Assembly: GCF_030409685.1 (NCBI RefSeq)
Contig: NZ_JAUFQJ010000024.1
Location: 496,001 to 560,000, forward strand
Length of the DNA stretch: 64,000 nucleotides
Reading direction: 5' to 3'
Source of the DNA: Ferruginibacter paludis
GTDB taxonomy: Bacteria > Bacteroidota > Bacteroidia > Chitinophagales > Chitinophagaceae
In this document: one piece after another, positions 36,291 through 51,416 of the stretch
Position numbering within the stretch: position 1 is the first letter of the stretch
Layout of the letters: each line of letters starts with the position of its first letter
Position numbers and translations under genes: made by a program
The notes under the pieces: generated by a model
What the model saw: the letters and a program-made list of their open reading frames with translations, nothing else
Database searches by the model: none
Told to the model about the DNA's origin: nothing

Positions 36291-38093
36291 TTATTGTTTG
36301 GTTACAGTGTACGTATTCCGGATAAAGTTTACAACGATTTTGTAATTACCAGCAACTGTTGGCCCTGGTGTGTTAGATCCGGGAACTGCATTATCTGACA
36401 GTAAAGCACCTCCGGTACCCGAAGTCCCGCCAAACTTGTGGTCCCAGTTACCATTTAATGGCAAGAACAGGTAAGCGCCGCTACCGGTTAAAGGTACTGT
36501 AAGTTCAAAGGTTGCATTATCTGTTTGTGTAAATTGCTGTGATGGAGTAGGAACCGGATTAGACCAGGCACCGGCGGTGGCATCTCCCACTATATATAAA
36601 TTGTCGGGAACTGGTACGCCGGTATAAGGTGTAACAGTATAGGTGTTTGTTTGAAAGTTCACAATTATCTTGTAAAGTCCGGTTGTTGCAGGTGCCGGCG
36701 TATTGCTACCGGGAACTGCATTATCTGCAAGTAAAGTACCGCCTGTTCCGCTTGTACCACCGAATTTATGATCCCAGTTTCCGGCAACAGGAACAAATAC
36801 ATATCCGTTACCGGCAGTAAGATTAACTATAATGCCATATGAAACAGCATCCAGCCGGGTAAATTGCTGCTTAGGTGCTAAGCCAGGAGTATTATTCCAG
36901 GCTAATGCGGTAGCATCGCCGACAATATACAAATTAGCAGGAATTGCACCAGCATAAGGTGTAACTGTGTAAGTACCTGTCTGGAAGTTTACCACTATTT
37001 GATAAGTACCGCTGGTAGCCGGTGATGGAGTGTTTGAACCCGGAACTGCGTTATCAGCCAGTAAGGTACCGCCGGTAGCGCTAGTGCCACCAAATTTATG
37101 ATCCCAGTTTCCGGCAACCGGTACAAATACATATCCTTTGCCAGCAGTAAGGTTAACTATAATACCATAAGAAACAGCATCCAGCCTTGTAAATTGTTGT
37201 GTTGGTGATAACCCTGCGTCATTGTTCCAGCCGAGTGCTGTGGCATCGCCGACAATATAAAAATTTTCAGGAATGGGAGTAAATGTGGTAATATTGATTA
37301 CGACAGGATCTGAATAAACCAATGGGTTATCGTAGTTGGTACCCAAATAGCTAACCACCCTGAATTCAACATTTTTAGTAGACCCTCCAATTGCACCTGC
37401 AGCAATTGCTGCCGAATTCAAATCAGTTACTGTAAAGTCTGAAGTTAATGAACTGCCGTATTTTATGAGTTGTGGACTGGTAAAGTTACCGCCCACTGTA
37501 TCCAGCTGAATCGCATAGTTAATAATATCAGCTCCATATGGACTTGATTTCCAGTTAAACGAAACCGCTTTACTGGTAGCATTGCTAACCAGCAACACCA
37601 ACGGACTGGCTGAGGATGGAGTTAATTTTAAAGGAACCAGGTACGAGGTAATAGTTACTTTAATTACGTTTGACTTAAGCTGCTCATTGTTATTGCCATA
37701 AGAAGAAGTAACCCTTATATCAAAACTGAACGCCTTGCCTGCAGCAAATCCAAAATTTGCCAAAATATTATTGAGCTGCTGACCAGTAAAAGAAATACCA
37801 GGTTGGCCACTTACAATACTGACTGTTTCTTTAGCAAAATTGCGGCCTGCAGAATCTATTTCAAGAATAAATTTTTGGGTAGCTGAATCAGTTGCATATT
37901 TCGGATTCGTCCAGGAAAAAGTGACAACAACCTTACTTGAATCGTTGGCCGTAGGAGCAATGGTTGTGGAAGAGCTGGTAAGTACCGGTGCCGCGCCATT
38001 GGCATAAAAAGGCAATGGGTCTACCTTCTTGCAGGATGAATACATCATCAACATACCCGTTGCAAGCAGCAGAAGTTTAAAAATATTTTTCAT
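36291..38093 (-). CDS. SusE/SusF-like outer-membrane glycan-binding lipoprotein with three tandem repeats
   Basis: The 600-residue lipoprotein has a lipobox at YSSC (Cys21), two SusE-type N-terminal domains (about 35-150 and 155-270) and three tandem binding-module repeats of about 110 residues (274-383, 384-493, 496-600). Each repeat starts with NLYIVGDATA or similar and contains GNWDHKFGGTS and NAVPGSNTP. Repeats 1 and 2 are nearly identical over long stretches (FTRLDAVSYGIIVNLTAG in both), so the duplication is recent. SusE and SusF bind starch at the cell surface through such modules. It is the last gene of the susCDE-type operon, 45 bp after the SusE-like gene. Confidence 0.88.
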   Translation of the reverse strand: MKNIFKLLLLATGMLMMYSSCKKVDPLPFYANGAAPVLTSSSTTIAPTANDSSKVVVTFSWTNPKYATDSATQKFILEIDSAGRNFAKETVSIVSGQPGISFTGQQLNNILANFGFAAGKAFSFDIRVTSSYGNNNEQLKSNVIKVTITSYLVPLKLTPSSASPLVLLVSNATSKAVSFNWKSSPYGADIINYAIQLDTVGGNFTSPQLIKYGSSLTSDFTVTDLNSAAIAAGAIGGSTKNVEFRVVSYLGTNYDNPLVYSDPVVINITTFTPIPENFYIVGDATALGWNNDAGLSPTQQFTRLDAVSYGIIVNLTAGKGYVFVPVAGNWDHKFGGTSATGGTLLADNAVPGSNTPSPATSGTYQIVVNFQTGTYTVTPYAGAIPANLYIVGDATALAWNNTPGLAPKQQFTRLDAVSYGIIVNLTAGNGYVFVPVAGNWDHKFGGTSGTGGTLLADNAVPGSNTPAPATTGLYKIIVNFQTNTYTVTPYTGVPVPDNLYIVGDATAGAWSNPVPTPSQQFTQTDNATFELTVPLTGSGAYLFLPLNGNWDHKFGGTSGTGGALLSDNAVPGSNTPGPTVAGNYKIVVNFIRNTYTVTKQ

Positions 38094-38138: not shown

Positions 38139-38978
38139 TTACAATTTGGTAACAGCATATTTTCCCCGCTGAAAATCAACAGCAATTTTATAGCTGCCTG
38201 CTGCCGCTGGTCCTGCAAATCCGGGGTCTGAATCCTTCTTTTCAAAATCGCCGGCATCCCAGGTCCCACCTGTTTTCATGTGATATTGCGTATCCCATTT
38301 ACCTTGTTCCTGTATCAGTTTATAAGCGCCCCCACCTTTCATGGTTACAGTAAGTTCATATAGTGTAGCTGAAACCATCTTAAATTTCTGGCTCGCATCA
38401 TAAGGTGCAAGCAAAGGATTTGCATACCCTGAAGCAGTTGCATCACCGGTAAGCCATAATGTGCCATTTGTTGGAGGCTCCACTACAGGCGGGATAGCAT
38501 AAGGCGTAACCTTGTATTTTAAAACATTGGAGTATAACCCTGCGGAGTTGTTGCCCAAAAAAGATTTTACCCTTAATTCTATGTTGTGTGAAACTCCCGG
38601 AGTCAGTACCAGCTGGTTCAACAGGTATCCGTTAAATTCTGATACTAAAAATGATTTACTTAAATCTTTACTTACCGACACTGTTTGTTTTGAAGTGCTG
38701 GTGAAGTTGGCACCAGTAGTGTCTATTTCAACCTGGTAGCTTACATCCTGCGAACTAACGCCGGTGTTAAACATATAATTCGGATTTGTCCAGCTTAAAT
38801 TCAGCGCTGCATTATCCTTGTTTGCAAAAGAAAGCGGAAGTGTACTTGCAGTAACCGAACTGCTTAATACAGGACTTGTACCGCCTTCAAAATAAACTTT
38901 ATTTTCATCTTTTTTGCAGGCAGTAAACACTACACCCAGCATAGAAAAGAGAAAGAATGATTTTACTATTTTTTTCAT
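38139..38978 (-). CDS. SusE-like outer-membrane glycan-binding lipoprotein
   Basis: The 279-residue product has a lipoprotein signal with lipobox VFTAC followed by KKDENKVYFEGG, an N-terminal SusE domain (ALNLSWTNPNYMFNTG, YQVEIDTTGANFTS) and one C-terminal module (TLWLTGDATASGYANPLLAP ... YKIAVDFQRGKYAVTKL). The tail sequence resembles that of the neighbouring three-repeat protein, so the two are paralogues. The ATG at 38978 was chosen because it begins the signal peptide (MKKIVKSFFLFSM); the longer frame to 39110 reads into the SusD gene. It lies 25 bp after susD. Confidence 0.9.
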   Translation of the reverse strand: MKKIVKSFFLFSMLGVVFTACKKDENKVYFEGGTSPVLSSSVTASTLPLSFANKDNAALNLSWTNPNYMFNTGVSSQDVSYQVEIDTTGANFTSTSKQTVSVSKDLSKSFLVSEFNGYLLNQLVLTPGVSHNIELRVKSFLGNNSAGLYSNVLKYKVTPYAIPPVVEPPTNGTLWLTGDATASGYANPLLAPYDASQKFKMVSATLYELTVTMKGGGAYKLIQEQGKWDTQYHMKTGGTWDAGDFEKKDSDPGFAGPAAAGSYKIAVDFQRGKYAVTKL

Positions 38979-39003
38979 TTTTTTTGATTTTAGCAGTGAG
39001 TGA

Positions 39004-40623
39004 TTAATACCCCGGATTTTGGGTGAGGTTAGAATTAGCTGATAAGACAGTAGCAGGTATTGGGAACAAATTATATTTTGCATCCACCGCGGTACCGGAA
39101 GCAACGCCACCTTTCCATGGCCATAAATAAGTACCGGATGTCAGTAACCCGAACCTGATTAAATCTGTACGGCGATGACCTTCCCAATACAATTCACGTC
39201 CCCGCTCATCCAATATTAGCTGGGTGGTTAAATCACTTAAGGTTAACTGTCCGGTTGCTGTTCCTCCGTAAGCCCTAACCCTCAATAAATTCAGATAAGT
39301 CAATGCGGCTGTTTTATCGCCACCTGCACCGCCGCGAAGGGTTGCTTCTGCGTAGATCAGGTACATTTCAGGTAAGCGGAAAACAGGAAAATCGATGTCT
39401 GCAAAATAACCTGTAGGGTCATTCACTTTGGCACCATCTGATCTTTTATTTACAAACTTAACAACATGTGGTCCCTGGTCAAAATTGCTGATATCAGCTA
39501 TAGCCAGCTGGGCTGAACCGGTGCCATATTTTGAAGTAGTAAACATGGCCCTTGTATCAGAAGCACCTGTTTTATCAGCAAACAAATTTACCAGGCCGGA
39601 CGTAGCTCTGTAGCCATACCATCCACCACCTGTAACTCCATAATCAGAAGTAGCTTCATCACCTGATGCGGCGTGTGCTATAAAGGTTGTGTTACCATAA
39701 CCCTGTGTATGTAAACCATCAATAGGCACCGCAAAAATGAATTCATTTTTTTGCTTATCATTATCAGCCATAAATAATTTTGCATAGCTGGATTGTAATG
39801 CATATCCGCCGCCAATTACTTTGGATGCATAAAAAATTGCACTGTCATAATGGGGCGTACCAGTATACACTTCTGCATTTAAGTAAACACGGGCAAGTAA
39901 AGCCCATGCAGCACCCTGGTCAACTCTGCCGTATTCAATGGTTTTAACAGGAGCCAGGTCAGCATCAATTGCTTTTAATTCACCTGTAATATATTTGAAC
40001 AAATCAGCTCTTTTTATTTCCGCTGGCAATGGTCCGCCAACAACATCTGCTTCTGTTACAAAAGTAGAGTTGCCAAACAAGTCCATCATCAGCCAGTAAT
40101 TAAACGCTCTTAAAAATCTAACTTCCGCCCTGGTGCTTTTAATGCTGGTAGCGTCTGCGCCGGTAATGCCATTGGCAGCCACCGCTTCATCGGTGGAGTA
40201 ACGCAGGTATTCATTTGCCAAAGTAATATTGTACATCGGCCTGGCGTACATTCCTTTTAAAAACGGGTCAGCGCTGGTGAATGATAAATTGTGATAATCG
40301 TGTATGGTCTGGTCATTCCAGGCTACTACGGCTTCATCAGTTGGTAGTTCCTCGCAGTTGAAATATGGACGTATAAAAGCGATTTGTGAACCTTCATCCA
40401 GGTTGCCGCTGATATCCGGCTGACCGGCAGGTCCCTGGTTTCCACCGGAAGCAAGTCCTCCATAAATTTTAGCCAGTACACTTTTGTATCCTGCTGGTGT
40501 GGAATAAACTTTATCCGGTGTAAGATCATTCGTTGGATTTAAGTCCAACTTTTTTGCGCAGGATGTTACAGCCGCAACCGCAACAAACGCAACAACTATT
40601 TTTTTAAATGTTTTACTTATCAT
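39004..40623 (-). CDS. SusD/RagB family nutrient-binding lipoprotein
   Basis: The 539-residue protein is the surface lid of a SusCD transporter. It has a lipobox VTSC, the SusD opening KKLDLNPTNDLTPDKVYST, TPR-like helices (EVRFLRAFNYWLMMDLFGN, AAWALLARVYLNAEVY) and the closing region LILDERGRELYWEGHRRTDLIRFG with terminal LTQNPGY. It follows susC by 19 bp. The TTG at 40653 was rejected in favour of the ATG at 40623, which begins the signal peptide. Confidence 0.96.
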   Translation of the reverse strand: MISKTFKKIVVAFVAVAAVTSCAKKLDLNPTNDLTPDKVYSTPAGYKSVLAKIYGGLASGGNQGPAGQPDISGNLDEGSQIAFIRPYFNCEELPTDEAVVAWNDQTIHDYHNLSFTSADPFLKGMYARPMYNITLANEYLRYSTDEAVAANGITGADATSIKSTRAEVRFLRAFNYWLMMDLFGNSTFVTEADVVGGPLPAEIKRADLFKYITGELKAIDADLAPVKTIEYGRVDQGAAWALLARVYLNAEVYTGTPHYDSAIFYASKVIGGGYALQSSYAKLFMADNDKQKNEFIFAVPIDGLHTQGYGNTTFIAHAASGDEATSDYGVTGGGWYGYRATSGLVNLFADKTGASDTRAMFTTSKYGTGSAQLAIADISNFDQGPHVVKFVNKRSDGAKVNDPTGYFADIDFPVFRLPEMYLIYAEATLRGGAGGDKTAALTYLNLLRVRAYGGTATGQLTLSDLTTQLILDERGRELYWEGHRRTDLIRFGLLTSGTYLWPWKGGVASGTAVDAKYNLFPIPATVLSANSNLTQNPGY

Positions 40624-40642
40624 AAAAAATATTTTTATCAAA

Positions 40643-43636
40643 TTAGAAATCAAGATTGCAACCCAATGAGAAAATACGTGGGCGTGGATAGATATTATTA
40701 TCTACTCCATGAGGATCAGAATTTTCCGGATCAAGTCCTGAATACTTTGTAATTACAAACACGTTCTGAACGCTGGCGTTTACCCTTAAAGAAACTTTGT
40801 TGCCGAATACCTTACCTGCATTAAAACCAATATTGATATTATCCAACCGTAAATACGAAGCATTCTCAATATAATAATCAGTCAGGTACTGGTTATTTAC
40901 AAAACCTGTTGACAGGTAATTTGTTCCTGCATTGCCTATGAAGTTGATAGGATTTTTTATAGAACGCAACACCCCGCTGTTGGAGCTGAAGTTGTTATAC
41001 AGGTAGTTGCCGAAAGCGCCGTGTGCGGCCAGGCCAAGTACCCATTTGTTGTACATTAATTGTGTGCTAAGCCCTAACAAGACATCTGGTGCCGGCTTTT
41101 TATAATAATACTGATCTTTTGCATCTACAGCACCATCCCTGTTTCTGTCCTCATATAATCCTTCAATCAATTTACTGGTTTTGCTATCGTACACCTGTTG
41201 GTAAACATTAAAGGTAAAAGGTGCATATCCTACGTCAAATATGCCAATCTGGTTACCGGTACCACCACTGATACCACTCTGGGGTATTGCTTTTGACGGA
41301 CCCAGGTTGGTAATTTTATCTTCGTTGTAAGCCACATTAAATCCAAAATCCCAGGTAACGTTTTTTGTTTTTACAGGTGTAGTATTTAATACAAACTCAA
41401 CACCTTTACTTTCCAGGTTACCAATATTGGTTACGATAGAAATATCAAAATTGCGGCCTGCAGCCTGTGGCACCGCACCTAATAAATCTTTTGTTTTCTT
41501 TTGATAAACTTCCACTGAACCTGAAATACGGTTGTTTAAAAATCCGAAATCAAGACCGAGGTTGGAAGTAGTTGTTGTTTCCCATTTAATATTGGGATCG
41601 TATGCACCCGGACGGAGGTAGCTGATAAATGCATTTCCAAATTGGTATTGTGCAGAAGAATTACTTACTGAATAAACTGGCAGGTATGGATACAATGGAT
41701 TAAAGCTGCCACCTGTTCCGCTGATATCCTGCTGGCCGGTTACACCCCAGCTTCCACGCAATTTTAATTCACTTAATAAACGGGTGTTTTTAAAGAAATC
41801 TTCTTTCAGTTTCCAGGCAGCTGATACAGCAGGGAAATAACCTACACGGGTTGCAGGTGAAAATTTTGAACTTGCATCCCTGCGGACTGAAGCTGTTAAA
41901 TAGTACTTATTGTCATAGGCATAATTCATGCGGCCCAAATAAGATTCCAGCCTGTACTCTGGTTTGTCAGTAGCAAACGTTGGAACACTGTTGGCAATTA
42001 CTACTCCATTTTGTCCATAGCTGGCATAATTAGATACATTGGTCAAAAAATCCTGGTAACCATGCAATGCCAGCACGTCTATTTTGCTTTTAATGCTTTT
42101 GATATCTTTTGTATAAAACAGGGAAACTTCGGCCAGTTTATTTTGCTTGCCTTGTTTGTAGTAAGCATACCGGCCGGCTGTTTTATAGTCGGTCGCCATG
42201 ATAGAATCCCGGTTGTCGTGTCCGCTGCCATTGGCATTATCCAAACCCAAGTTGGCCTGCAAATGCAGATCAGGAAAGAAATGTAATTTATAATCAAGCT
42301 GCACATTACCAATAATTCTGTTGGCAGTAGACGTGTTATGTCTTAACTCCAGCAAAGCAAGCGGGTTACGTGTTGACAAATCAATTGGTAATGTTGTACC
42401 TGGCTGCAACCACTCATAATAGCCACCCCATTTGCCATTGTGTGTAGCATCGTGAACTGGTTGAGTAGGATCAAATGCTGCCGCAGAACCTACAGCTCCC
42501 TGGTCTGCAAAACGGTTACTGGTAGAAGAGTATTTAACATTCAGGTTGATAGAAAGATGATCATCCAAAAATTTAGGTGATAAATTTAAAGCAGTAGAAT
42601 AACGGTTAAAATGATCTGTTTTTAAAATTCCGTCCTGGTTCAAATAACCTCCCGAAATGCGGAAAGGGATATTACCAATTGCTCCACTTGCACTCAGGTT
42701 ATTATCATTTCCGATTGCTGTTTGAAAAATCTGATCCTGCCAGTCAGTATTGGCGCTGCCTAATAAACTTTTATAGGTATTATTTCCGGAAGTCATTGCA
42801 TCCGTGTTGATAATGGTCCTGATTTGATCAGCAGTTAATACACTTACTTTTTTAGCTACTGCACCTGCAGACAATTGCGTATTAAAATTGAATTTGATTT
42901 TTCCTTTTAAGCCTTTCTTAGTAGTAATAAGAATCACACCATTTGATGCCCTTGAACCGTACAATGAAGTTGCAGATGCATCTTTCAAAACACTCATTGA
43001 TTCAATGTCATTCGGGTTAATAGTATTAAGTAAATTAGCTGAACCAGGTAAGTTATTGTTATCCACCGGTACCCCATCAATTACAATCAAAGGATCATTG
43101 CTTGCACTGATAGAAGATCCGCCGCGGATGCGGATAGTACTTCCACCACCGGCAGCACCACCTCCTGTTGTAATTTGCAAACCGGCTACTTTTCCCTGCA
43201 ACAATTGTTCGGAGGAAGCAATAGCACCTTTTTGAAAATCTTTGGAAGAAATAGAAGTGATTGCACTTGTCAAATCACTTTTTTTACGTGTGCCGTAAGC
43301 TACCACAACAAGGTCACTTAACTGCTGACTTGAAGTAACGAGGCTTACATTCATTGTTGCGCCATTTACCGCTATTTCCTGGCGGCCAAAACCAACTGAG
43401 GTAAAAACCAGCGTTGAACCGTCGGCCACGGTTAATTTGTAAGTACCATCAGCGGCGGTTTGTGTGGAACGCTGTGTGCCCTTCACTGTTACGGTTGCGC
43501 CGGCAACAGGGCTGCCGTCTTTTGAATCAGTAATTTTTCCAGTAACAACACTTTGTGCCATAGCCGCTGCGGAAAGCAGCAATACGGCAAGCGTCATTGA
43601 AAAAAACCTGAAGCATCTTTTCATGCTCTTTTTCAT
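40643..43636 (-). CDS. SusC/RagA family TonB-dependent outer-membrane transporter
   Basis: The 997-residue protein has a signal peptide (TLAVLLLSAAAMAQ), a carboxypeptidase-D-like N-terminal domain (VVTGKITDSKDGSPVAGATV), the SusC plug with VVVAYGTRKKSDLTSAI, LLQGKVAGLQI, IRIRGGSSISASNDPLIVID and SVLKDASATSLYGSRASNGV, and a beta barrel ending in IFSLGCNLDF. It would import oligosaccharides with energy from TonB. The start may be 43642 (MHMKK) or 43636 (MKKSMKR). The 230-bp region upstream carries three regularly spaced palindromes and a TAGATTTG promoter element. Confidence 0.97.
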   Translation of the reverse strand: MKKSMKRCFRFFSMTLAVLLLSAAAMAQSVVTGKITDSKDGSPVAGATVTVKGTQRSTQTAADGTYKLTVADGSTLVFTSVGFGRQEIAVNGATMNVSLVTSSQQLSDLVVVAYGTRKKSDLTSAITSISSKDFQKGAIASSEQLLQGKVAGLQITTGGGAAGGGSTIRIRGGSSISASNDPLIVIDGVPVDNNNLPGSANLLNTINPNDIESMSVLKDASATSLYGSRASNGVILITTKKGLKGKIKFNFNTQLSAGAVAKKVSVLTADQIRTIINTDAMTSGNNTYKSLLGSANTDWQDQIFQTAIGNDNNLSASGAIGNIPFRISGGYLNQDGILKTDHFNRYSTALNLSPKFLDDHLSINLNVKYSSTSNRFADQGAVGSAAAFDPTQPVHDATHNGKWGGYYEWLQPGTTLPIDLSTRNPLALLELRHNTSTANRIIGNVQLDYKLHFFPDLHLQANLGLDNANGSGHDNRDSIMATDYKTAGRYAYYKQGKQNKLAEVSLFYTKDIKSIKSKIDVLALHGYQDFLTNVSNYASYGQNGVVIANSVPTFATDKPEYRLESYLGRMNYAYDNKYYLTASVRRDASSKFSPATRVGYFPAVSAAWKLKEDFFKNTRLLSELKLRGSWGVTGQQDISGTGGSFNPLYPYLPVYSVSNSSAQYQFGNAFISYLRPGAYDPNIKWETTTTSNLGLDFGFLNNRISGSVEVYQKKTKDLLGAVPQAAGRNFDISIVTNIGNLESKGVEFVLNTTPVKTKNVTWDFGFNVAYNEDKITNLGPSKAIPQSGISGGTGNQIGIFDVGYAPFTFNVYQQVYDSKTSKLIEGLYEDRNRDGAVDAKDQYYYKKPAPDVLLGLSTQLMYNKWVLGLAAHGAFGNYLYNNFSSNSGVLRSIKNPINFIGNAGTNYLSTGFVNNQYLTDYYIENASYLRLDNINIGFNAGKVFGNKVSLRVNASVQNVFVITKYSGLDPENSDPHGVDNNIYPRPRIFSLGCNLDF

Positions 43637-43800
43637 ATGCATAATTTTTCTTTTTGATGGCAGAAGAAATGCAGGCAAAATGTTGTGGAGGGGAAGATGA
43701 ACTCATCCAGGGATGGGTGAACAGATTTTCTCAGTAGCAAACAATTTGGTGGTATTTCATAAAGCAGCCATTCGTTAATAAAGCTGGTTAAATTTTTGTA

Positions 43801-43817
43801 TGTGTATTTTTTACACA
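43801..43817. promoter_or_regulatory. Operator 1 upstream of susC (perfect palindrome)
   Basis: TGTGTA-TTTTT-TACACA is a perfect 6-5-6 palindrome, 165 bp before the susC start. It is the first of three sites with a 24-bp period. Confidence 0.7.
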
Positions 43818-43824
43818 ATAGTAA

Positions 43825-43841
43825 TGTGTATTTTTTACATT
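43825..43841. promoter_or_regulatory. Operator 2 upstream of susC
   Basis: TGTGTA-TTTTT-TACATT repeats the left arm and spacer of operator 1 exactly, with two changes in the right arm. Its start is exactly 24 bp from operator 1. Confidence 0.65.
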
Positions 43842-43848
43842 ATTACAA

Positions 43849-43865
43849 TGTGTATATATTACGCA
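43849..43865. promoter_or_regulatory. Operator 3 upstream of susC
   Basis: TGTGTA-TATAT-TACGCA keeps the arms with one change and starts exactly 24 bp from operator 2. It abuts the promoter element at 43864-43871, so a bound protein would cover the expected transcription start. Confidence 0.65.
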
Positions 43866-43871
43866 AATCTA
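43864..43871 (-). promoter_or_regulatory. susC promoter -7 element
   Basis: TAGATTTG on the minus strand matches TAnnTTTG. No good TTG lies 19-23 bp further upstream, which fits a promoter needing an activator or one kept weak. The three operators lie immediately downstream. Confidence 0.5.
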
Positions 43872-43968
43872 GACCGTTTTGTGTGAATTAACGCTGCTTT
43901 TAGAAAAAAAATTATTACAGAGTTGGTGCTGATAGTAAACCTGAGAGGAAATTACGTGGGCGCCCGGG

Positions 43969-44709
43969 CTAAAAGTCTATACCCACCCACTTTTTCTGTT
44001 TCTTTTCGTATTTCTCAAAATTAAATTTATACAACTTTCCCGGACGGTGTGGTGCATCTTGTTCCATTTCATTCAGATCAATCAGCAAGTCCATAGTAAA
44101 AAATTTCTTTCTGAAATTCCTTCTGTCCATTTTTACATCCAGTATCGCTTCATATAAATTTTGCAGGTCTCTCAGCGAAAACTTTTTGGGTAATAAGTTA
44201 AAACCCAACGGGTGTTCCTGTACCCTTTTTTGCAACTGTTTTAAACAGGTATCAAATATTTGCTGGTGATCAAAAGCGAGGTCTTTCACCGTTTGTACAT
44301 CGTGCCAGTGCAGTTCATTATCTAAAATATTTATTTTATGATGCTGCACATTAATTAAAGAGCAGTAAGTAACTGTAACTACCCGGCCTGCCGGATGCCT
44401 GTCAACAGCTCCAAAAGTATGCACCTGCTCCAGGTATACATCACTTAAACCGGTACGTTGTTTTAATATTCTGTAAGCTGCATCATCCAAATCTTCTTTT
44501 GGAAATACAAGGTCGCCTAGTAATGACCATTTACCCGAATACTTTTTTAAATCACTTCTTATCAGCAATACTTTGAGTTTGTTTTCATCAAAGCCAAAAA
44601 TTACACAGTCAACAGACAGGGCGATGCGATTGGTATTTTCCAGTTCTGATTGAATAGCATGTATTGATTTACTCTTTTTTTCCAGTGCTTTTTTTTCTGC
44701 GGCCGACAT
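43969..44709 (-). CDS. Nudix-family transcriptional regulator (NrtR/AraR-like)
   Basis: The 246-residue protein has a Nudix domain (about 28-150) followed by a winged-helix C-terminal domain (FSLRDLQNLYEAILDVKMDR, about 177-245). In the Nudix box (residues 65-88) the catalytic pattern REUxEE is replaced by R80-I-L-K-Q84-R85, so hydrolysis is unlikely and the domain probably senses a metabolite. Proteins of this design include NrtR of NAD metabolism and the Bacteroides arabinose regulator AraR. The gene lies 35 bp after the amylase gene on the same strand and just upstream of the sus-like operon. I infer that it controls both through the TGTGTA-N5-TACACA sites. Confidence 0.87.
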   Translation of the reverse strand: MSAAEKKALEKKSKSIHAIQSELENTNRIALSVDCVIFGFDENKLKVLLIRSDLKKYSGKWSLLGDLVFPKEDLDDAAYRILKQRTGLSDVYLEQVHTFGAVDRHPAGRVVTVTYCSLINVQHHKINILDNELHWHDVQTVKDLAFDHQQIFDTCLKQLQKRVQEHPLGFNLLPKKFSLRDLQNLYEAILDVKMDRRNFRKKFFTMDLLIDLNEMEQDAPHRPGKLYKFNFEKYEKKQKKWVGIDF

Positions 44710-44744: not shown

Positions 44745-47700
44745 TTATTTTTTAATAAAGTGAATATAATGGCTTTTCCCATTTTGTTCAAGCTGTATAA
44801 AATAATTTCCGGAATTTATCCCCTTTAACTGGTATGGCAAAATTAATTGATACTGTCCCTGGTTTTGTGTACCGCTGAACAGGCGTTGTATTCGCTGCCC
44901 GAGCGACGTAATCAATGAAAGGGTGACCTTGCCGCTGCCTGGTACAAGGTAATCAATCACCACCTCGCCTGCTGCAGGATCAGGTGAAATTTTAAGGCCG
45001 AATCCATCTTTTAGATTGGTAATGGTATTATTCCTCGAGGCGGTAGTAAACTGTGCATTGCTAAAATTACCGGCACCAATACCGGTACAATTGGCACTAA
45101 CTCTCCAGTCGTACGTTGTGGCTGGTGATAAATTTTCAATAGCAATACTACCTGCGGTGCTGTTCGATAAAACGTTTATCCAGCTGCTGCTGATGATGGC
45201 TTTATAATCTACCGAATAAAAAATGCCTGGTAAAGCTGCCCAGCTGAGATGAGCTGCTGTAAGTGTTACATCTGAAACCGCCAACGCTGTTGGAGGTGCT
45301 GGTGTTGCTTTTACAGTTACAGTAATTTCCGCCCGGCCACTTTCGCCGCAGTTGTTTCGCTCACTCACATAATAAGTAGTGTTACCAGCAACCTCTGTAG
45401 AAGGAACAATTGCAACAGAACTGCCAACGCCACCTGTAGCAACAGTATACCATAACAAATCAGTACCTGTTGCTGATAAAACAGCGGCGTTTTCATGCTG
45501 ACAATAAGCGACAGCTTCAACAACTACCGGCGTAGCAGGAAGTGCTGTTGTATTTACTGTGATAGATGCTCTCGGGCTTTCACACCCATTGTTAGTCTGA
45601 CTTACATAATAACTAACCGTCCCTGCAGCTGCAGTGGATGGTACCGGAGCAGTTGCAATACCACTGCCACCTGTCGCAGCGGTATACCACAATAAACTGG
45701 TGCCGGTGGCTGACAAACCACTGGCAGTTGCGTTTTGACAATAAGTGACCGATGAAGTAACCAATGGTATTGCAGGTGTCGCTTTTACAGTTGCAGTAAT
45801 AGTGGCCCGCTCGCTTTCGCAGCCGTTAACAGCCTGGGTAACATAATAAACTGCATTGCCTGTAATAGCAGTTCCCGGAACGGGTGCTGCTGTATTGCCC
45901 GTACCGCCGGTGGGTGCAGCATACCATAATAAACTGGTACCAGTGGCTGTTAAGGCCACCGCCGTAGTATTCTGGCAAAACATAACCGGGGTTGCAACAA
46001 CTGGCGCAGCTGGAACGGGAGAAATGTTTACTGTTATTGCAGCCCTTGAACTCTCCCCACAGCTCAGGGTTTGTGTAACATAAAAAATTGTTGTGCCAGC
46101 CGCAACGGTTGATGGAACGGGTGCTGTTGCAGAACCGGTGCCGCCTGTTGCCGTAGTGTACCACAGCAAGCCTGTGCCGGTTGCTGTAAGTGCAACAGGT
46201 GTAACTCCCTTGCAATAGTTAACAGGTGTAGTAATAACAGGTACTGGTGTTGTTGCTGATATATTAACAGTAACAGGCAGGCGTGAGCTTTCACAGCCGT
46301 TTGTTTGAGTTACATAATAATTAGTACTGCCAGTGGTTGATGTAACTGGTATCGGAGCGTTGGCAGTTCCTGTACCACCGGTGGCAGTAGTGTACCATAA
46401 CAAATTTGTGCCGGTAGCAGTAAGTGATGCAGCAACTGCATTCTGGCAATAATTTACCGGGCTTGTTGCAGTAGGCGCAACCGTTGCGCAAGTGGGAACG
46501 CTTACATACACATGGTATTCACCGGGCTGCAATGTGATTGATTGTGTTGCGGCTGTAAGATTAAAAGCATTGCCAGTGATACCATTCAGTCCCGTGCCTG
46601 TTCCGTTGCTTAAATAATTATTCCAGTCGCCGGCAGATTGAAAAGAGATGGTCCTGGTTTGCGGTAATACATCCAGGTTGGCTATTACGGTAACCTTAAT
46701 ACCTGCAGCCAAAGGATCTGCAATCTGTAATTTTCTGAACAAGCCGTTGTTATCATTAAAATCATATGTAAAACTGGGGTTATTAAAAACAGCAGGATTA
46801 TTCAATCTTAATTTTATCAGTTGCGCATAGGCATTCCATAATTTCAGCCTGTCCGCATCAGCCATATATTCCCAATGTGGCGGTTTATTGGCTACGTTGG
46901 AACCGCCAAAACCCAATGAAATGTCATACCCTCTTTCGCCAAACTGCCAAAACATTTTTGGCCCCGGCACAGTGAAGAAAACAGCCGCTGCTGCTGCCTG
47001 CCTGTCTAAAGCCGTGGCAACAGTTTTTACATTATAACCGCCTGCAATATTACCATATTGCTCATTTTTATACATCAGCCTTTCTTCATCATGGCTTTCC
47101 ATATATCCCATTTCAGATGGTGTGGTAAAGGCTCCCTGCGTACTGTTATATACAATTTTAGAAAAATCAGCATTGCTGGCATAGCCCATCGTATTCTGGT
47201 TATAGGTGGCATTATTGTTTCCCCACAGGATAAATCCTTTGGTGGCATATTCCTGTTCTTCCTGCCTTTGCTGCCCTAAAAATTCCAGTATCATGTACGT
47301 CCCGGGAAATTTCGGCACTATATAATCATAGTACCGGTTTAAATTGGCAACCCTCGTAGCATCATAATTTTCAACAGTGGTTGTACTGCTTTGTGTTTGA
47401 GTAAATCCTTTTGCCAGGTCAAGCCTAAAGCCGTCTACTTTATATTCTTTCAGCCAATATTCCATAGATCTTTCAACAAGATATTGTGTGGCGGTGGTAG
47501 TGTGGTTGAGGTCGTTAAATACGCTATATGGGTGCGGCGCATTCTGGTTAAACCAGGGACTGTTTGCAGCGGGTATTCCAGCGGTTGCATCCCAATATAA
47601 CCGGCCCTGCGGATTACTGTATGCGTCCATATGATTATATACCGCATCCAGGATTATAGCAATACCATTTTGGTGACACAGATCAATAAATTCCTTAAAC

Positions 47701-49112
47701 TTATTTTTTGTGCCATAAGCTTTATCAAGCGCACAATAAAAAGTTGGGTTATATCCCCAGCTTTCGTTTCCGGTGAACTCGTTTACCGGCATCAATTCGA
47801 TGGCATTTATTCCCAGCCGTTTAAAATAACCGACGGTATCAATCAGCATCTGGTAATTGCGGGCATCACCAAAATCACGTACCAATAATTCGTAGGTGAT
47901 CAGGTTTCGCTTATCCGGCTTTGTGAAGTTGGTTACCTGCCAGTTGTAGGCAGGCGCACATGTTTGCAGCACACTTACTATTCCATTTTTTCCTGCTGAA
48001 ACGTTGACATTCACCGGGTATGGCTTTAACGCTGGGTAAGTTGCTGCCGGAATATATTGGTCGTTGGCAGGATCCAGTATTTTTTCACTATACGGATCAG
48101 CAACATAAATTGCATTGTCGACAACATATTCAAAAGCATATTCCTGGCCGGAAGCAAGACCATTAATAGTGAGCCAGTAATAGTTACCGTCCGGTGTTTT
48201 ATTCATTTGAAAGGCAGCCTGCGGCATCCAGTTACTACCGGCAAAATCACCAATTACCATGGCATCGCTTTTATTCGGCGCATACAAAACAAGCGTTACT
48301 GAGGTGCAGTTAGAGGCATAATTAATTCCTTCCACAGCCCCTGAAGGTAATGGCGCTACTACGGTAACAGGGGCTATATAAAAATTGACCGTATCGTAAT
48401 AACTGACACCGCTTAAAACAAGTTCTGATATAAGTTGCTGGTTACCTGTTGCGGTTACCAATGCATTGCCGGTAATGGTGGCAACCCCGCTCAAAGGGCC
48501 CGTAATTTTTGTTCCGTTATAGTATAAATTTAAAATGCCTGTAGTAGTAGAAGCTGTGGCCGCAACAGCAACAGTTTGGTTTATAGTTGCTGTAATTGGT
48601 TCGTGAGAAATTGTGTTGGTCGGTACAATCAGCGGTGTAGTAAATTGGATATGATTGCTGCCGGCTGCATAAATGGGCACGTACATATCCGAACCATCCG
48701 CATTTTTTTGCACCAGGTTTCCCGCTGCATCCCTGAAAAGTAACGCTATTTTTAAAATAGTTTCCCCCGCGGGAACGCCGCCAGCACCTGAATTAAAATA
48801 TGCCCTAGGGTTGGTGATTATAAACGACCACTTATTACTACCAAGTGAAGTTGCTACCGGCGCCGTTGTGGATGCCCAGGTTGTGGGTACATATTTCCAG
48901 TCGCCCGGCGTTGTGCTAAGGTTAGTGATTACGCCCAAATGCATGTAGACAGTACCGGTATAGCCTTTCAATGCCTGGTTGCCTTTTGTTGCGTCAACAG
49001 TGATTGTTATGGTAGAATTATCGCCTGGAAATTGAGGAGACCAGGAAAGTAACTGTGCATGGGAAGTAAAAGCAAAAAAAAGAATAATAAGCAGCTGCAG
49101 AGTTTTTTTCAT
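44745..49112 (-). CDS. T9SS-exported GH13 alpha-amylase with five Ig-like repeats
   Basis: This 1455-residue enzyme has a signal peptide (MKKTLQLLIILFFAFTSHAQ), N-terminal beta domains including a CBM48-like segment (YAPNKSDAMVIGDFAGSNW), a GH13 barrel (about 400-770) and a beta domain. All four GH13 regions are intact: LDAVYNH, GFRLDLAKG (nucleophile Asp), ILEFLG (acid Glu) and MESHDEE. Five Ig-like repeats of about 80 residues follow (roughly 882-1267), each with a YC and a GCES or CGES cysteine pair and LLWYTTATGG-like core. An FN3-like domain and a Por secretion C-terminal sorting domain (LKISPDPAAGEVVIDYL to the end) complete it. It should act on starch or pullulan at the cell surface. 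An ATG at 49121 is the alternative start. Confidence 0.93.
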   Translation of the reverse strand: MKKTLQLLIILFFAFTSHAQLLSWSPQFPGDNSTITITVDATKGNQALKGYTGTVYMHLGVITNLSTTPGDWKYVPTTWASTTAPVATSLGSNKWSFIITNPRAYFNSGAGGVPAGETILKIALLFRDAAGNLVQKNADGSDMYVPIYAAGSNHIQFTTPLIVPTNTISHEPITATINQTVAVAATASTTTGILNLYYNGTKITGPLSGVATITGNALVTATGNQQLISELVLSGVSYYDTVNFYIAPVTVVAPLPSGAVEGINYASNCTSVTLVLYAPNKSDAMVIGDFAGSNWMPQAAFQMNKTPDGNYYWLTINGLASGQEYAFEYVVDNAIYVADPYSEKILDPANDQYIPAATYPALKPYPVNVNVSAGKNGIVSVLQTCAPAYNWQVTNFTKPDKRNLITYELLVRDFGDARNYQMLIDTVGYFKRLGINAIELMPVNEFTGNESWGYNPTFYCALDKAYGTKNKFKEFIDLCHQNGIAIILDAVYNHMDAYSNPQGRLYWDATAGIPAANSPWFNQNAPHPYSVFNDLNHTTTATQYLVERSMEYWLKEYKVDGFRLDLAKGFTQTQSSTTTVENYDATRVANLNRYYDYIVPKFPGTYMILEFLGQQRQEEQEYATKGFILWGNNNATYNQNTMGYASNADFSKIVYNSTQGAFTTPSEMGYMESHDEERLMYKNEQYGNIAGGYNVKTVATALDRQAAAAAVFFTVPGPKMFWQFGERGYDISLGFGGSNVANKPPHWEYMADADRLKLWNAYAQLIKLRLNNPAVFNNPSFTYDFNDNNGLFRKLQIADPLAAGIKVTVIANLDVLPQTRTISFQSAGDWNNYLSNGTGTGLNGITGNAFNLTAATQSITLQPGEYHVYVSVPTCATVAPTATSPVNYCQNAVAASLTATGTNLLWYTTATGGTGTANAPIPVTSTTGSTNYYVTQTNGCESSRLPVTVNISATTPVPVITTPVNYCKGVTPVALTATGTGLLWYTTATGGTGSATAPVPSTVAAGTTIFYVTQTLSCGESSRAAITVNISPVPAAPVVATPVMFCQNTTAVALTATGTSLLWYAAPTGGTGNTAAPVPGTAITGNAVYYVTQAVNGCESERATITATVKATPAIPLVTSSVTYCQNATASGLSATGTSLLWYTAATGGSGIATAPVPSTAAAGTVSYYVSQTNNGCESPRASITVNTTALPATPVVVEAVAYCQHENAAVLSATGTDLLWYTVATGGVGSSVAIVPSTEVAGNTTYYVSERNNCGESGRAEITVTVKATPAPPTALAVSDVTLTAAHLSWAALPGIFYSVDYKAIISSSWINVLSNSTAGSIAIENLSPATTYDWRVSANCTGIGAGNFSNAQFTTASRNNTITNLKDGFGLKISPDPAAGEVVIDYLVPGSGKVTLSLITSLGQRIQRLFSGTQNQGQYQLILPYQLKGINSGNYFIQLEQNGKSHYIHFIKK
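45312..46469 (-). repeat. Five tandem Ig-like repeat units inside the amylase gene
   Basis: The DNA encodes five consecutive homologous units of about 230-250 bp, each beginning near a YCQN or YCKG codon run and containing a LLWYTTATGG-type core. The fourth and fifth units are more divergent than the first three. Confidence 0.85.
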
Positions 49113-49123
49113 GTGGCGCATTT

Positions 49124-49144
49124 AATGTGTAAATTAAACACATT
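49124..49144. promoter_or_regulatory. Operator upstream of the amylase gene
   Basis: AATGTGT-AAATTAA-ACACATT is a perfect 7-7-7 palindrome ending 12 bp before the amylase ATG at 49112. Its core TGTGTA-AATTA-AACACA differs by one base from the perfect susC operator. On the minus strand TATTTTG lies a short distance upstream, so the site would sit just after the transcription start. Confidence 0.65.
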
Positions 49145-49313: not shown

Positions 49314-51416
49314 ATGTACGACAACAGCCAAACGAAAAAATTACAGTCCAAAACCAGTGATTGGTTATTGGCTGCCAGGGAAAAGAGCGACCCGGTTACC
49401 ACGGGCAAGGTTGACAGCCTCCGGGAAATACTTCGCTTTCATGAATACCGGTACTATGTACAAAACGATCCGCTTATCAGCGATGAAGAGTATGATATTT
49501 TATACAAACTGCTGGAAAAATTTGAAAAGGTCCATCCCGAACTGGTCACTCAGGACTCTCCTACACAAAGAGTAGGCAAAGGGCTGGTAAGCAGTTTCCC
49601 AAAAGTGCAACACCTGGTGCCAATGCTATCTTTAGAAAATTCATACAATGCCGATGATTTGCTTGACTGGGACAGGAAAGCGAAAGAACTCTCAGGCCTT
49701 TCCGAAATTGAATATTGTGTAGAACCTAAATTTGATGGCGCCAGTATTTCACTGATATACGACAATGACCAGCTGTATCGTTCTGCTACCCGGGGCGATG
49801 GTGTGGTCGGTGATGAAATTACCATCAATACGCGGCAAATAAAATCTCTGCCGCTCAGCGCCAAATTCAGCAGTTATGGTATTGAGCAAATTGAGATACG
49901 GGGTGAAGTACTGATCAATAAAAATAATTTTAAAAAATTCAACGATAAATTAATTGAAGAAGGGATTCCGCCATTTGCCAATCCCCGCAACTCTGCCGCC
50001 GGGTCGTTGCGTATAAAAGATACCGCGGAAGTTGGGCGGAGAAACCTGGAAGCTTTTTTATACCATGTAAGCTATATAACTGCTACGGACACGCGCCAGC
50101 CAACTACTCACTCCGGCATGCTTGAAATGCTTTGGAACCTGGGATTCAGAAGTCCTAAAAAAGAAATGTTGGTGGTAAAGGGAATAGACAAGGTGATTCA
50201 GCATGTAGAAGATTTTGAAAACAAACGCGACACGTTGCCTTATGAAATTGATGGAATGGTGGTGAAAGTGAATGATCTGCAATTACAGGAGCGGCTGGGG
50301 ATGACATCCCATCATCCACGCTGGGCAATTGCTTTTAAGTTTAAGGCGCGCCAGGCAACCAGCAAATTACTAGGCGTTAACTTCCAGGTGGGCCGGACCG
50401 GGGCAGTTACCCCTGTTGCAAGAATTGCCGCAGCAGCAGTTGGCGGTGTTACCGTAACAAGTATCTCCATCCACAATGAAGAATACATTAAGGAAAAGCA
50501 GCTGATGCTGGGCGATACTATTCTCATAGAACGCAGCGGCGATGTAATACCACAAATTGTAAAATCATTTACCGAGCTCCGAACTGGTTCAGAAGAAGCC
50601 ATACAATTTCCAACAAGCTGCCCCGTTTGCAGTCACCAGTTATTTAAGCCGGAAGGTGAAGCCGTTTGGCGCTGCATTAATATCAATTGTCCCGCACAGG
50701 TGGTGGAAAGAATTATTCATTTTGTAAGTAAAGATGCAATGGATATTAAAAGTTTTGGAGAGGCCAATGTGCGCAAATTCTTTGAGCTTGGTTTATTAAA
50801 AGATGTTCCGGGTATATATGAACTGGATTACGAAGTCATTGGTCAGTTACCAGGCTTTGGAAAAAAATCGCTCGACAATTTGCAGGCAGCAATCACGAGC
50901 TCCAAATCGCAGCCCTTACATCGGTTAATATATGGTTTGGGTATCCGTTATGTTGGTGAAACCACGGCTAAAACACTGGCTAATTTGGTAAATGATTTGA
51001 TGGAGTTTACAGATTACACAGAAGAACAATTGCAGCAGGCCGAAGACATCGGAGTTAAAGTAGCGGGAAGCATTTACCGCTTTTTTCACGATGCGGAAAA
51101 TCTGCACATGCTTCGAAAGCTGGAACAATTGGGCATTTCACTAAAAAATCAAAAGAAACAGGTAATTGTAACCGATACGCCGCTGGCCGGACAAACCTTC
51201 TTGTTTACTGGTACGCTTAACAGGCTTAAAAGAAGCGACGCGGAAGAAAAGGTGGAAGAAAACGGCGGAAAATTAGTCAGTGGTGTCAGCAGCAAATTAA
51301 ATTATTTGGTTGTGGGGGATGATGCTGGCAGCAAACTGGAAAAAGCAAAAAAAATTCAAACCATTAAAATAATTAGTGAAGAAGAATTTATAAAAATGCT
51401 GCCCCAGGAAAAATAA
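49314..51416 (+). CDS. ligA: NAD-dependent DNA ligase
   Basis: The 700-residue enzyme seals nicks using NAD. In order it has the Ia domain (ILRFHEYRYYVQNDPLISDEEYD), the adenylation motif EPKFDGASISL with the nucleophilic Lys, TRGDGVVGDEIT, the OB fold, a four-cysteine zinc finger (CPVCSHQLF ... CININCPAQV), helix-hairpin-helix repeats (LPGFGKKSLDNLQAAI) and a C-terminal BRCT domain (GQTFLFTGTLNRLKR). The length is normal. It is the only essential-type gene between the amylase operon and the HNH-like gene. Confidence 0.98.
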   Translation: MYDNSQTKKLQSKTSDWLLAAREKSDPVTTGKVDSLREILRFHEYRYYVQNDPLISDEEYDILYKLLEKFEKVHPELVTQDSPTQRVGKGLVSSFPKVQHLVPMLSLENSYNADDLLDWDRKAKELSGLSEIEYCVEPKFDGASISLIYDNDQLYRSATRGDGVVGDEITINTRQIKSLPLSAKFSSYGIEQIEIRGEVLINKNNFKKFNDKLIEEGIPPFANPRNSAAGSLRIKDTAEVGRRNLEAFLYHVSYITATDTRQPTTHSGMLEMLWNLGFRSPKKEMLVVKGIDKVIQHVEDFENKRDTLPYEIDGMVVKVNDLQLQERLGMTSHHPRWAIAFKFKARQATSKLLGVNFQVGRTGAVTPVARIAAAAVGGVTVTSISIHNEEYIKEKQLMLGDTILIERSGDVIPQIVKSFTELRTGSEEAIQFPTSCPVCSHQLFKPEGEAVWRCININCPAQVVERIIHFVSKDAMDIKSFGEANVRKFFELGLLKDVPGIYELDYEVIGQLPGFGKKSLDNLQAAITSSKSQPLHRLIYGLGIRYVGETTAKTLANLVNDLMEFTDYTEEQLQQAEDIGVKVAGSIYRFFHDAENLHMLRKLEQLGISLKNQKKQVIVTDTPLAGQTFLFTGTLNRLKRSDAEEKVEENGGKLVSGVSSKLNYLVVGDDAGSKLEKAKKIQTIKIISEEEFIKMLPQEK

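Follow-up and report, generated by a model that had tools for sequence, protein, structure and literature searches.

The starch locus examined here belongs to the textbook sus system of Bacteroidota, for which most knowledge of regulation comes from Bacteroides of the gut, where control depends on SusR, and it raises the question of which protein controls such a locus in an environmental member of the Chitinophagaceae. The genes concerned lie in the window (the whole 64,000-nucleotide stretch of Ferruginibacter paludis DNA that was analysed), where those for an amylase, a regulator, SusC, SusD and two SusE/F-type proteins all run leftward:

44745..49121, minus strand: GH13 amylase of 1458 aa with CBM48, Ig_7 repeats and a type IX sorting tail; likely start 49112
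43969..44709, minus strand: regulator of 246 aa, Nudix plus NrtR winged-helix
40643..43678, minus strand: susC; likely start 43636 or 43642
39004..40653, minus strand: susD
38139..39110, minus strand: SusE-type outer-membrane protein gene
36291..38093, minus strand: SusE/SusF-type starch-binding protein gene

The amylase gene ends 35 bp before the regulator gene, so the two probably form one operon. The DNA ligase gene ligA (49314-51416) is divergent from this cluster, and it adjoins the regulator gene even in many loci that have neither susC nor the amylase. Palindromes stand in front of both susC and the amylase, and the comparisons described below make it very probable that they are the operators of the Nudix-winged-helix protein encoded between them, which would act as the repressor of a starch/maltodextrin regulon.

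The palindromes and their 24-bp register

The sites and the promoter element next to them are as follows:

43801..43817, no strand assigned: susC operator 1, TGTGTATTTTTTACACA, no mismatches to TGTGTA-N5-TACACA
43825..43841, no strand assigned: susC operator 2, two mismatches (ending in TACATT), 24 bp from operator 1
43849..43865, no strand assigned: susC operator 3, one mismatch (ending in TACGCA), 24 bp from operator 2
43864..43871, minus strand: -7-box-like element TAGATTTG of the susC promoter, two bases common with operator 3
49124..49144, no strand assigned: operator of the amylase-regulator operon, a perfect AATGTGT-N7-ACACATT

A sequence-only reading of this DNA had described three sites beginning at 43801, 43825 and 43849 with an exact 24-bp period, and a matching AATGTGT-N7-ACACATT at 49124-49144. 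Both features are present as claimed, the three susC sites carrying zero, two and one mismatches respectively, and the fourth site lying about 12 bp 5' of the amylase, a distance that follows from ATG 49112 being the orthologue-consistent amylase start. Because susC begins at about 43636/43642, the susC operators lie about 160-230 bp upstream of its start, behind a leader longer than those of most orthologues. Operator 1 is the sole perfect copy of the consensus among the four palindromes; the core of the amylase operator (49126-49142, TGTGTAAATTAAACACA) departs from TGTGTA-N5-TACACA by one mismatch, and operator 3 has a perfect copy in the near-identical relative G016 (locus L061).

The number of sites in the window is not in itself unusual, since six are found at two mismatches or fewer, where the mean over shuffled versions is 2.68 and 8 of 100 contain at least six. 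The arrangement of the sites was evaluated separately, using first-order Markov models: a 24-bp pair appeared in none of 500 versions of the window, and a triple with 24/24 spacing in none of 20,000 versions of the local stretch 43681-43968. Chance, or an artefact of AT-rich composition, is ruled out by these randomisations together with the reversed and permuted motif controls given below. The preference for a 24-bp spacing is genuine: neighbouring sites at 10-60 bp from each other (at most two mismatches in each) form 25 distinct pairs, tallied with pairs of identical sequence in two loci counted once and related species counted separately; of these pairs 12 stand at exactly 24 bp, and the whole set divides into 19 at 22-25 bp, three at 30-31 and three at 51-53.

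This register has a precedent in AraR of Bacteroides, whose tandem operators share it. In the available portion of the AraR study (PMC4666351), the AraR operator is GTGTA-N5-TACAC, a gap of 3 bp separates the tandem 21-bp sites in the majority of Bacteroides genomes, and a promoter fragment carries GTGTATTTGATACAC and GTGTTACTTTTACAC with starts 24 bp apart, on which AraR forms two discrete complexes, seen as separate shifted bands. The 24-bp period noted in the earlier reading is therefore a real feature but not a new one. That reading had also taken the fixed spacing as a sign of cooperative binding by an oligomer rather than of chance, and its two parts have fared differently: the spacing does exceed chance in the randomisations, whereas obligate cooperativity cannot be deduced from it, given the single operator at many orthologous susC promoters, the other spacings that occur, and the two separate bands of AraR (PMC4666351, in extract). 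The array thus suggests dimers that may sit side by side rather than a proven cooperative oligomer.

A regulator of the NrtR/AraR family

The protein encoded between the two sets of sites is an NrtR/AraR-type Nudix-winged-helix protein. Its Pfam scan gave NUDIX, NrtR_WHD and AraR_C alone above cut-off, placing a Nudix-like domain at the N terminus (PF00293) and an NrtR-type winged helix at the C terminus (PF21906 and PF19368). Of the proteins with a solved structure, AraR of Bacteroides thetaiotaomicron (BT0354; phmmer E 3.6e-53) is the best match to the regulator, whose predicted model (mean pLDDT 81.5) matches the fold of AraR (5bs6) first and that of NrtR (3gz6) next; the NCBIfam NtrR model, with a cut-off of 400 bits, scored 125. 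The Nudix signature is impaired, and catalysis is unlikely because, in the alignment, the Glu pair of the signature is replaced by Gln84-Arg85 and its Gly by Asp66. An identical regulator is encoded by Ferruginibacter sp. RYN_298 (L113).

The likeness to AraR (PDB 5bs6, 5dd4, 5ddg, 5deq) covers the fold, the domains and most of the residues that contact DNA. According to the accessible part of PMC4666351, AraR recognises GTGT through Lys179, Arg180, Asn181, Lys184, Lys204 and Arg205; the aligned residues of the regulator are Arg196, Arg197, Asn198, Lys201, His221 and Arg222, so that the differences are Lys179 to Arg and Lys204 to His. In an alignment of 22 sequences no variation occurs at Arg197, Asn198, Arg222 or the equivalent of AraR Arg183; position 196 is Arg or Lys, and Lys201 and His221 are present in nearly all. 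The GTGTA-N5-TACAC core of the operators and the AraR-type residues that read GTGT are therefore both present. The resemblance extends to the tandem 24-bp register and to the presence of a SusCD locus among the AraR targets (PMC4666351, in extract). The regulator differs from AraR in that its targets are starch/alpha-glucan genes, its pocket is altered, and it belongs to a separate clade: in a tree of 41 family members it joins other Chitinophagaceae proteins in a clade with support of 98/97, whereas BtAraR lies elsewhere, together with an araA-linked paralogue from the regulator's own genome, several branches of this tree being long and its deep joins unsure.

Four NrtR/AraR-type paralogues are encoded in the same genome:

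L063, 6932-7663: NrtR/AraR-type, beside a GH95 gene
L064, 6941-7672: NrtR/AraR-type, beside araA
L065, 6992-7789: NrtR/AraR-type, beside a GH3 gene
L066, 6944-7717: NrtR/AraR-type

Ownership of the operators by one of these paralogues is ruled out by recognition helices that differ from the regulator's and by site-free surroundings: no site with at most one mismatch occurs in the 14.6-14.7 kb around each of the four, and the three matches with two mismatches found there all lie inside ORFs.

Comparison with other systems places the regulator further. It shares the Nudix plus winged-helix architecture of Shewanella oneidensis NrtR (PDB 3gz5, 3gz6, 3gz8), an ADP-ribose sensor of NAD genes, from which it differs in having lost most of the compared ADP-ribose contacts. 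Like XylR (BT0791, of the Bacteroides NrtR family; PMC3878776 and PMC4666351, both in extract), it would be a sugar-responsive regulator of a catabolic locus, although XylR serves the xylose pathway and the likeness is drawn from the description of XylR rather than from its sequence. With SusR it shares a task, the control of the starch susCDEF locus; SusR, however, is described in the available part of PMC3878776 as a membrane activator that senses maltose in the periplasm, whereas the present regulator is a short Nudix-winged-helix protein of 246 aa, in whose Pfam scan membrane or periplasmic sensor domains of the SusR type are absent. Among the matches listed in the open literature there was no NrtR-type regulator of starch or maltose. 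The new element would be a starch branch of the NrtR/AraR family, the motif and the 24-bp register being already known from AraR.

Distribution of the sites beside the regulator and across the genus

Conservation of the sites beside orthologous regulators had been chosen beforehand as the point on which the proposal could fail. Twenty regions were fetched around relatives sharing 72-100% identity with the regulator; in one of these regions the sequence breaks off within the regulator gene. With the window included, 16 of 16 loci in which susC adjoins the regulator have one to three sites (at most two mismatches) between the two genes, a count from which L056 was left out because its contig ends and it gave no susC BLAST match, though a site is present; likewise, 16 of 17 amylase loci have a site with one mismatch just before the amylase, the seventeenth, L055, being cut by a contig end. 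In L043, L050 and L052 the regulator has neither susC nor the amylase as a neighbour, and no site was found there.

The survey was widened to 80 named loci, by title mostly from Chitinophagaceae and Saprospiraceae. In 33 of these susC or the amylase is nearby at a minimum of 40% identity, and 25 of the 33 have a site with at most one mismatch, in every case before susC/amylase or the regulator; the other eight have none at that threshold. Sites occur in 13 of the remaining 47 loci, and in seven of the 13 they precede a tested gene, the regulator or ligA. Terrimonas ginsenosidimutans and Flavihumibacter are examples of culturable relatives in which the arrangement of the window recurs.

The association can also be measured over whole genomes. 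The 59 genomes of the genus, a set in which the near-identical G016 was retained beside the own genome, contain 66 exact copies of the motif and three of the reversed motif, several of the 66 coming from near relatives or tandem pairs and hence not independent; a permuted-palindrome control gave 16 occurrences, and its reversal three. When each site is assigned to a gene whose start is turned towards it at a distance of up to about 420 bp, a rule that admits some sites between two genes and some over 250 bp away from the start, 52 of the 66 face alpha-glucan genes, namely 21 susC, 13 MFS transporter, six alpha-glucan phosphorylase, four GH97, four secreted GH13, one amylase of the window type, two further GH13 and one GH77. 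In the MFS, phosphorylase and GH97 classes a single member each was scanned with Pfam, and the rest were assigned by BLAST similarity. The site of L090, within the 5' part of a GH13 ORF, brings the alpha-glucan total to 53 of 66; 11 are at places that are unrelated or have no assignment, and those of L083 and L221 are ambiguous and were placed in neither class.

Two of the 11 are inside genes, and three are at genes for PEP carboxykinase (pckA) and/or an M24 aminopeptidase, either in front of them or in the interval that separates them (L205 4001, L108 658, L201 2604). The latter, in three sister genomes, hint at a possible link between this regulator and gluconeogenesis.

Orthologues of the regulator (at least 60% identity) are found in 31 of the 59 genomes, with G014 and G035 scored as positive on partial matches, and an exact site is present in 27 of these 31 compared with 5 of the 28 without an orthologue (Fisher 7e-8). 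No exact site was found in four orthologue-bearing genomes; many of the genomes in the genus are drafts, and an absence may in some cases reflect a gap in the assembly. Two of the five, G010 (77% complete) and G073 (93% complete), in which no orthologue was detected, have their exact sites at alpha-glucan genes, as they might if the operators were owned by another transcription factor and the Nudix gene were a bystander. This is nonetheless improbable, given the AraR-like operator core, the retained recognition residues, the co-occurrence of regulator and sites, and the paralogues of the own genome, which differ in their helices and have no sites around them. It is further opposed by G062, a genome in one contig with a single family member, which still has five exact sites, four of them at alpha-glucan genes (amylase, cyclomaltodextrinase, phosphorylase and GH77) and the fifth ambiguous.

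In the own genome, a second exact site precedes by about 25 bp the gene of an MFS sugar transporter, which is followed by a cyclomaltodextrinase gene, and a site with one mismatch stands about 50 bp before an alpha-glucan phosphorylase gene. Allowing two mismatches over 21 positions gives 11 places, five of them at the susC, amylase-regulator, MFS and phosphorylase operons. At three mismatches over 21 positions there is no enrichment (105 against 137 for the reversed motif), and for this reason the analysis was restricted to near-perfect sites. No site with two mismatches or fewer was found within 450 bp upstream of the GH97 relatives L261 and L262, the second phosphorylase L260 or the distant GH13 genes L267 and L268. 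The comparison strongly supports the earlier proposal that one Nudix-type regulator would act on both the susC operon and its own amylase-regulator operon, but the target set that was drawn from it proves too narrow, since the same genome has sites at the MFS-cyclomaltodextrinase and phosphorylase operons. Because sites also precede these operons and, in sister species, GH97, secreted GH13 and GH77 genes, the protein is expected to serve as the chief repressor for a starch/maltodextrin regulon.

Ligand pocket, promoter context and a model of repression

The ligand of the regulator can be approached by comparing its pocket with those of solved relatives. In the available portion of PMC4666351, AraR grips L-arabinose through Arg34, Arg86 and His131, with Phe36 and Phe49 among the residues that line the pocket, and AraR with R34N or F49Q stayed bound to DNA at 0.5 mM arabinose. 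The regulator retains Arg86 and His131 (as Arg104 and His148), while Arg34, Phe36, Gly48 and Phe49 have become Ser52, Leu54, Asp66 and Leu67. Since AraR Arg34 is Ser52 here, the inducer is probably not arabinose, and the pocket is probably roomier. That the regulator is AraR itself, an L-arabinose sensor to which starch genes have been recruited, would fit with AraR being its closest solved relative and having the same operator; the idea is scarcely credible in view of the replacement of Arg34, Phe36 and Phe49, two of which are the positions of the mutants that stayed bound to DNA (PMC4666351, in extract), and of a tree position apart from BtAraR, which pairs with the araA-linked L064. An AraR orthologue with arabinose targets is ruled out by the neighbouring genes (the amylase and susCDEF), the pocket residues and the tree.

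A different ligand is suggested by the NrtR relationship. The protein could be a repressor that responds to a nucleotide (ADP-ribose or ADP-glucose), as NrtR does, and so reports energy or NAD/glycogen state; it has the Nudix fold of the NrtR family, a nearly invariant Arg85 occupies the position of NrtR Lys76, and the MFS operon adjoins glgC and glgA (by sequence similarity and ORF reading). Arg85 is, however, the sole basic counterpart among the four phosphate contacts compared, the other three, Arg41, Asn43 and Arg98, having become Ser52, Leu54 and Ala107, and the regulon is one of alpha-glucan breakdown, so that a nucleotide ligand is unlikely, while the counterpart of Lys76 keeps a sugar phosphate or a nucleotide conceivable. 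The content of the regulon is the basis on which we infer an alpha-glucan product as the ligand.

The direction of control is indicated by where the operators lie. The -7 box of Bacteroidota has the consensus TAnnTTTG, and TAGATTTG, read on the minus strand from 43871 to 43864, resembles such a box. Operator 3 (43849-43865), the susC operator farthest from susC, overlaps it by two bases, a predicted position that agrees with the earlier suggestion of a site at or just after the transcription start. At orthologous susC genes the promoter-proximal operator begins inside a TA-rich element that ends in TTG and resembles a -7 box. In the susC promoters that were read, operators overlap the -7-like box or fall between it and the ATG, and in most other promoters read they are near the start codon. 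These positions tell against an activator of the SusR kind, as does AraR, which leaves DNA upon binding sugar (PMC4666351, in extract); the activator alternative draws on the control of starch genes by activation through SusR in Bacteroides (PMC3878776, in extract), and it is very improbable.

The preferred reading, repression by a sugar-responsive Nudix-winged-helix protein, can be put as a sequence of steps in which binding, repression and effector are extrapolated from the computed sites, conservation, family, recognition residues and regulon content. The ligand-free dimer would bind TGTGTA-N5-TACACA at two places, in the susCDEF promoter around its -7 element and start and within the short leader that precedes the amylase-regulator genes, where it would block RNA polymerase and so repress its own synthesis together with the uptake of starch and its digestion outside the cell. 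Starch breakdown would yield a small ligand derived from alpha-glucan (maltose, glucose or a sugar phosphate), the entry of which into the Nudix pocket would move the winged helices and release the DNA, as L-arabinose does with AraR. The tandem 24-bp copies would accommodate two or three dimers side by side, which may raise occupancy without being essential.

A broader form of this proposal is put forward tentatively, as one that could well prove wrong: the regulator would belong to a branch of the sugar-sensing Nudix proteins that is devoted to alpha-glucans and widespread among Chitinophagaceae, and in which a cytoplasmic repressor takes the role of SusR, a reshaped pocket senses maltose, glucose or glucose 1-phosphate, and one operator code extends from the extracellular amylase via outer- and inner-membrane uptake to the cytoplasmic phosphorylase. 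For environmental Chitinophagaceae the repressor model predicts that control follows another logic, in which both the operator and the set of genes are defined. If the model holds, a nucleotide-hydrolase fold that has been put to use for arabinose and for xylose would gain a third sugar specificity, and the regulator would provide a clear case of an operator code that stays fixed while ligand and regulon change.

Two features of the leaders may be recorded separately. A leader of the form AACGATTGC-(0-6 nt)-ATG adjoins the start codon of many regulon genes (for example L067 7014, minus strand), and in loci selected for their sites, of the 28 occurrences of AACGATTGC-ATG that precede ORFs of at least 100 aa, 23 have an operator no more than 250 bp upstream. 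In eight whole genomes the pattern occurs 83 times against 20 for its reversal, and among 30 such loci from these genomes an operator (at most one mismatch) lies just upstream in L234, L248 and L251 alone; its candidacy as a regulon-specific element was dropped, and it is treated here as a general start context, which also precedes unrelated ORFs. The stretch of about 160 bp from the susC operators to the susC start (43643-43800) contains an ATG that opens a 9-codon ORF, and the context of this ATG resembles the susC starts of other species.
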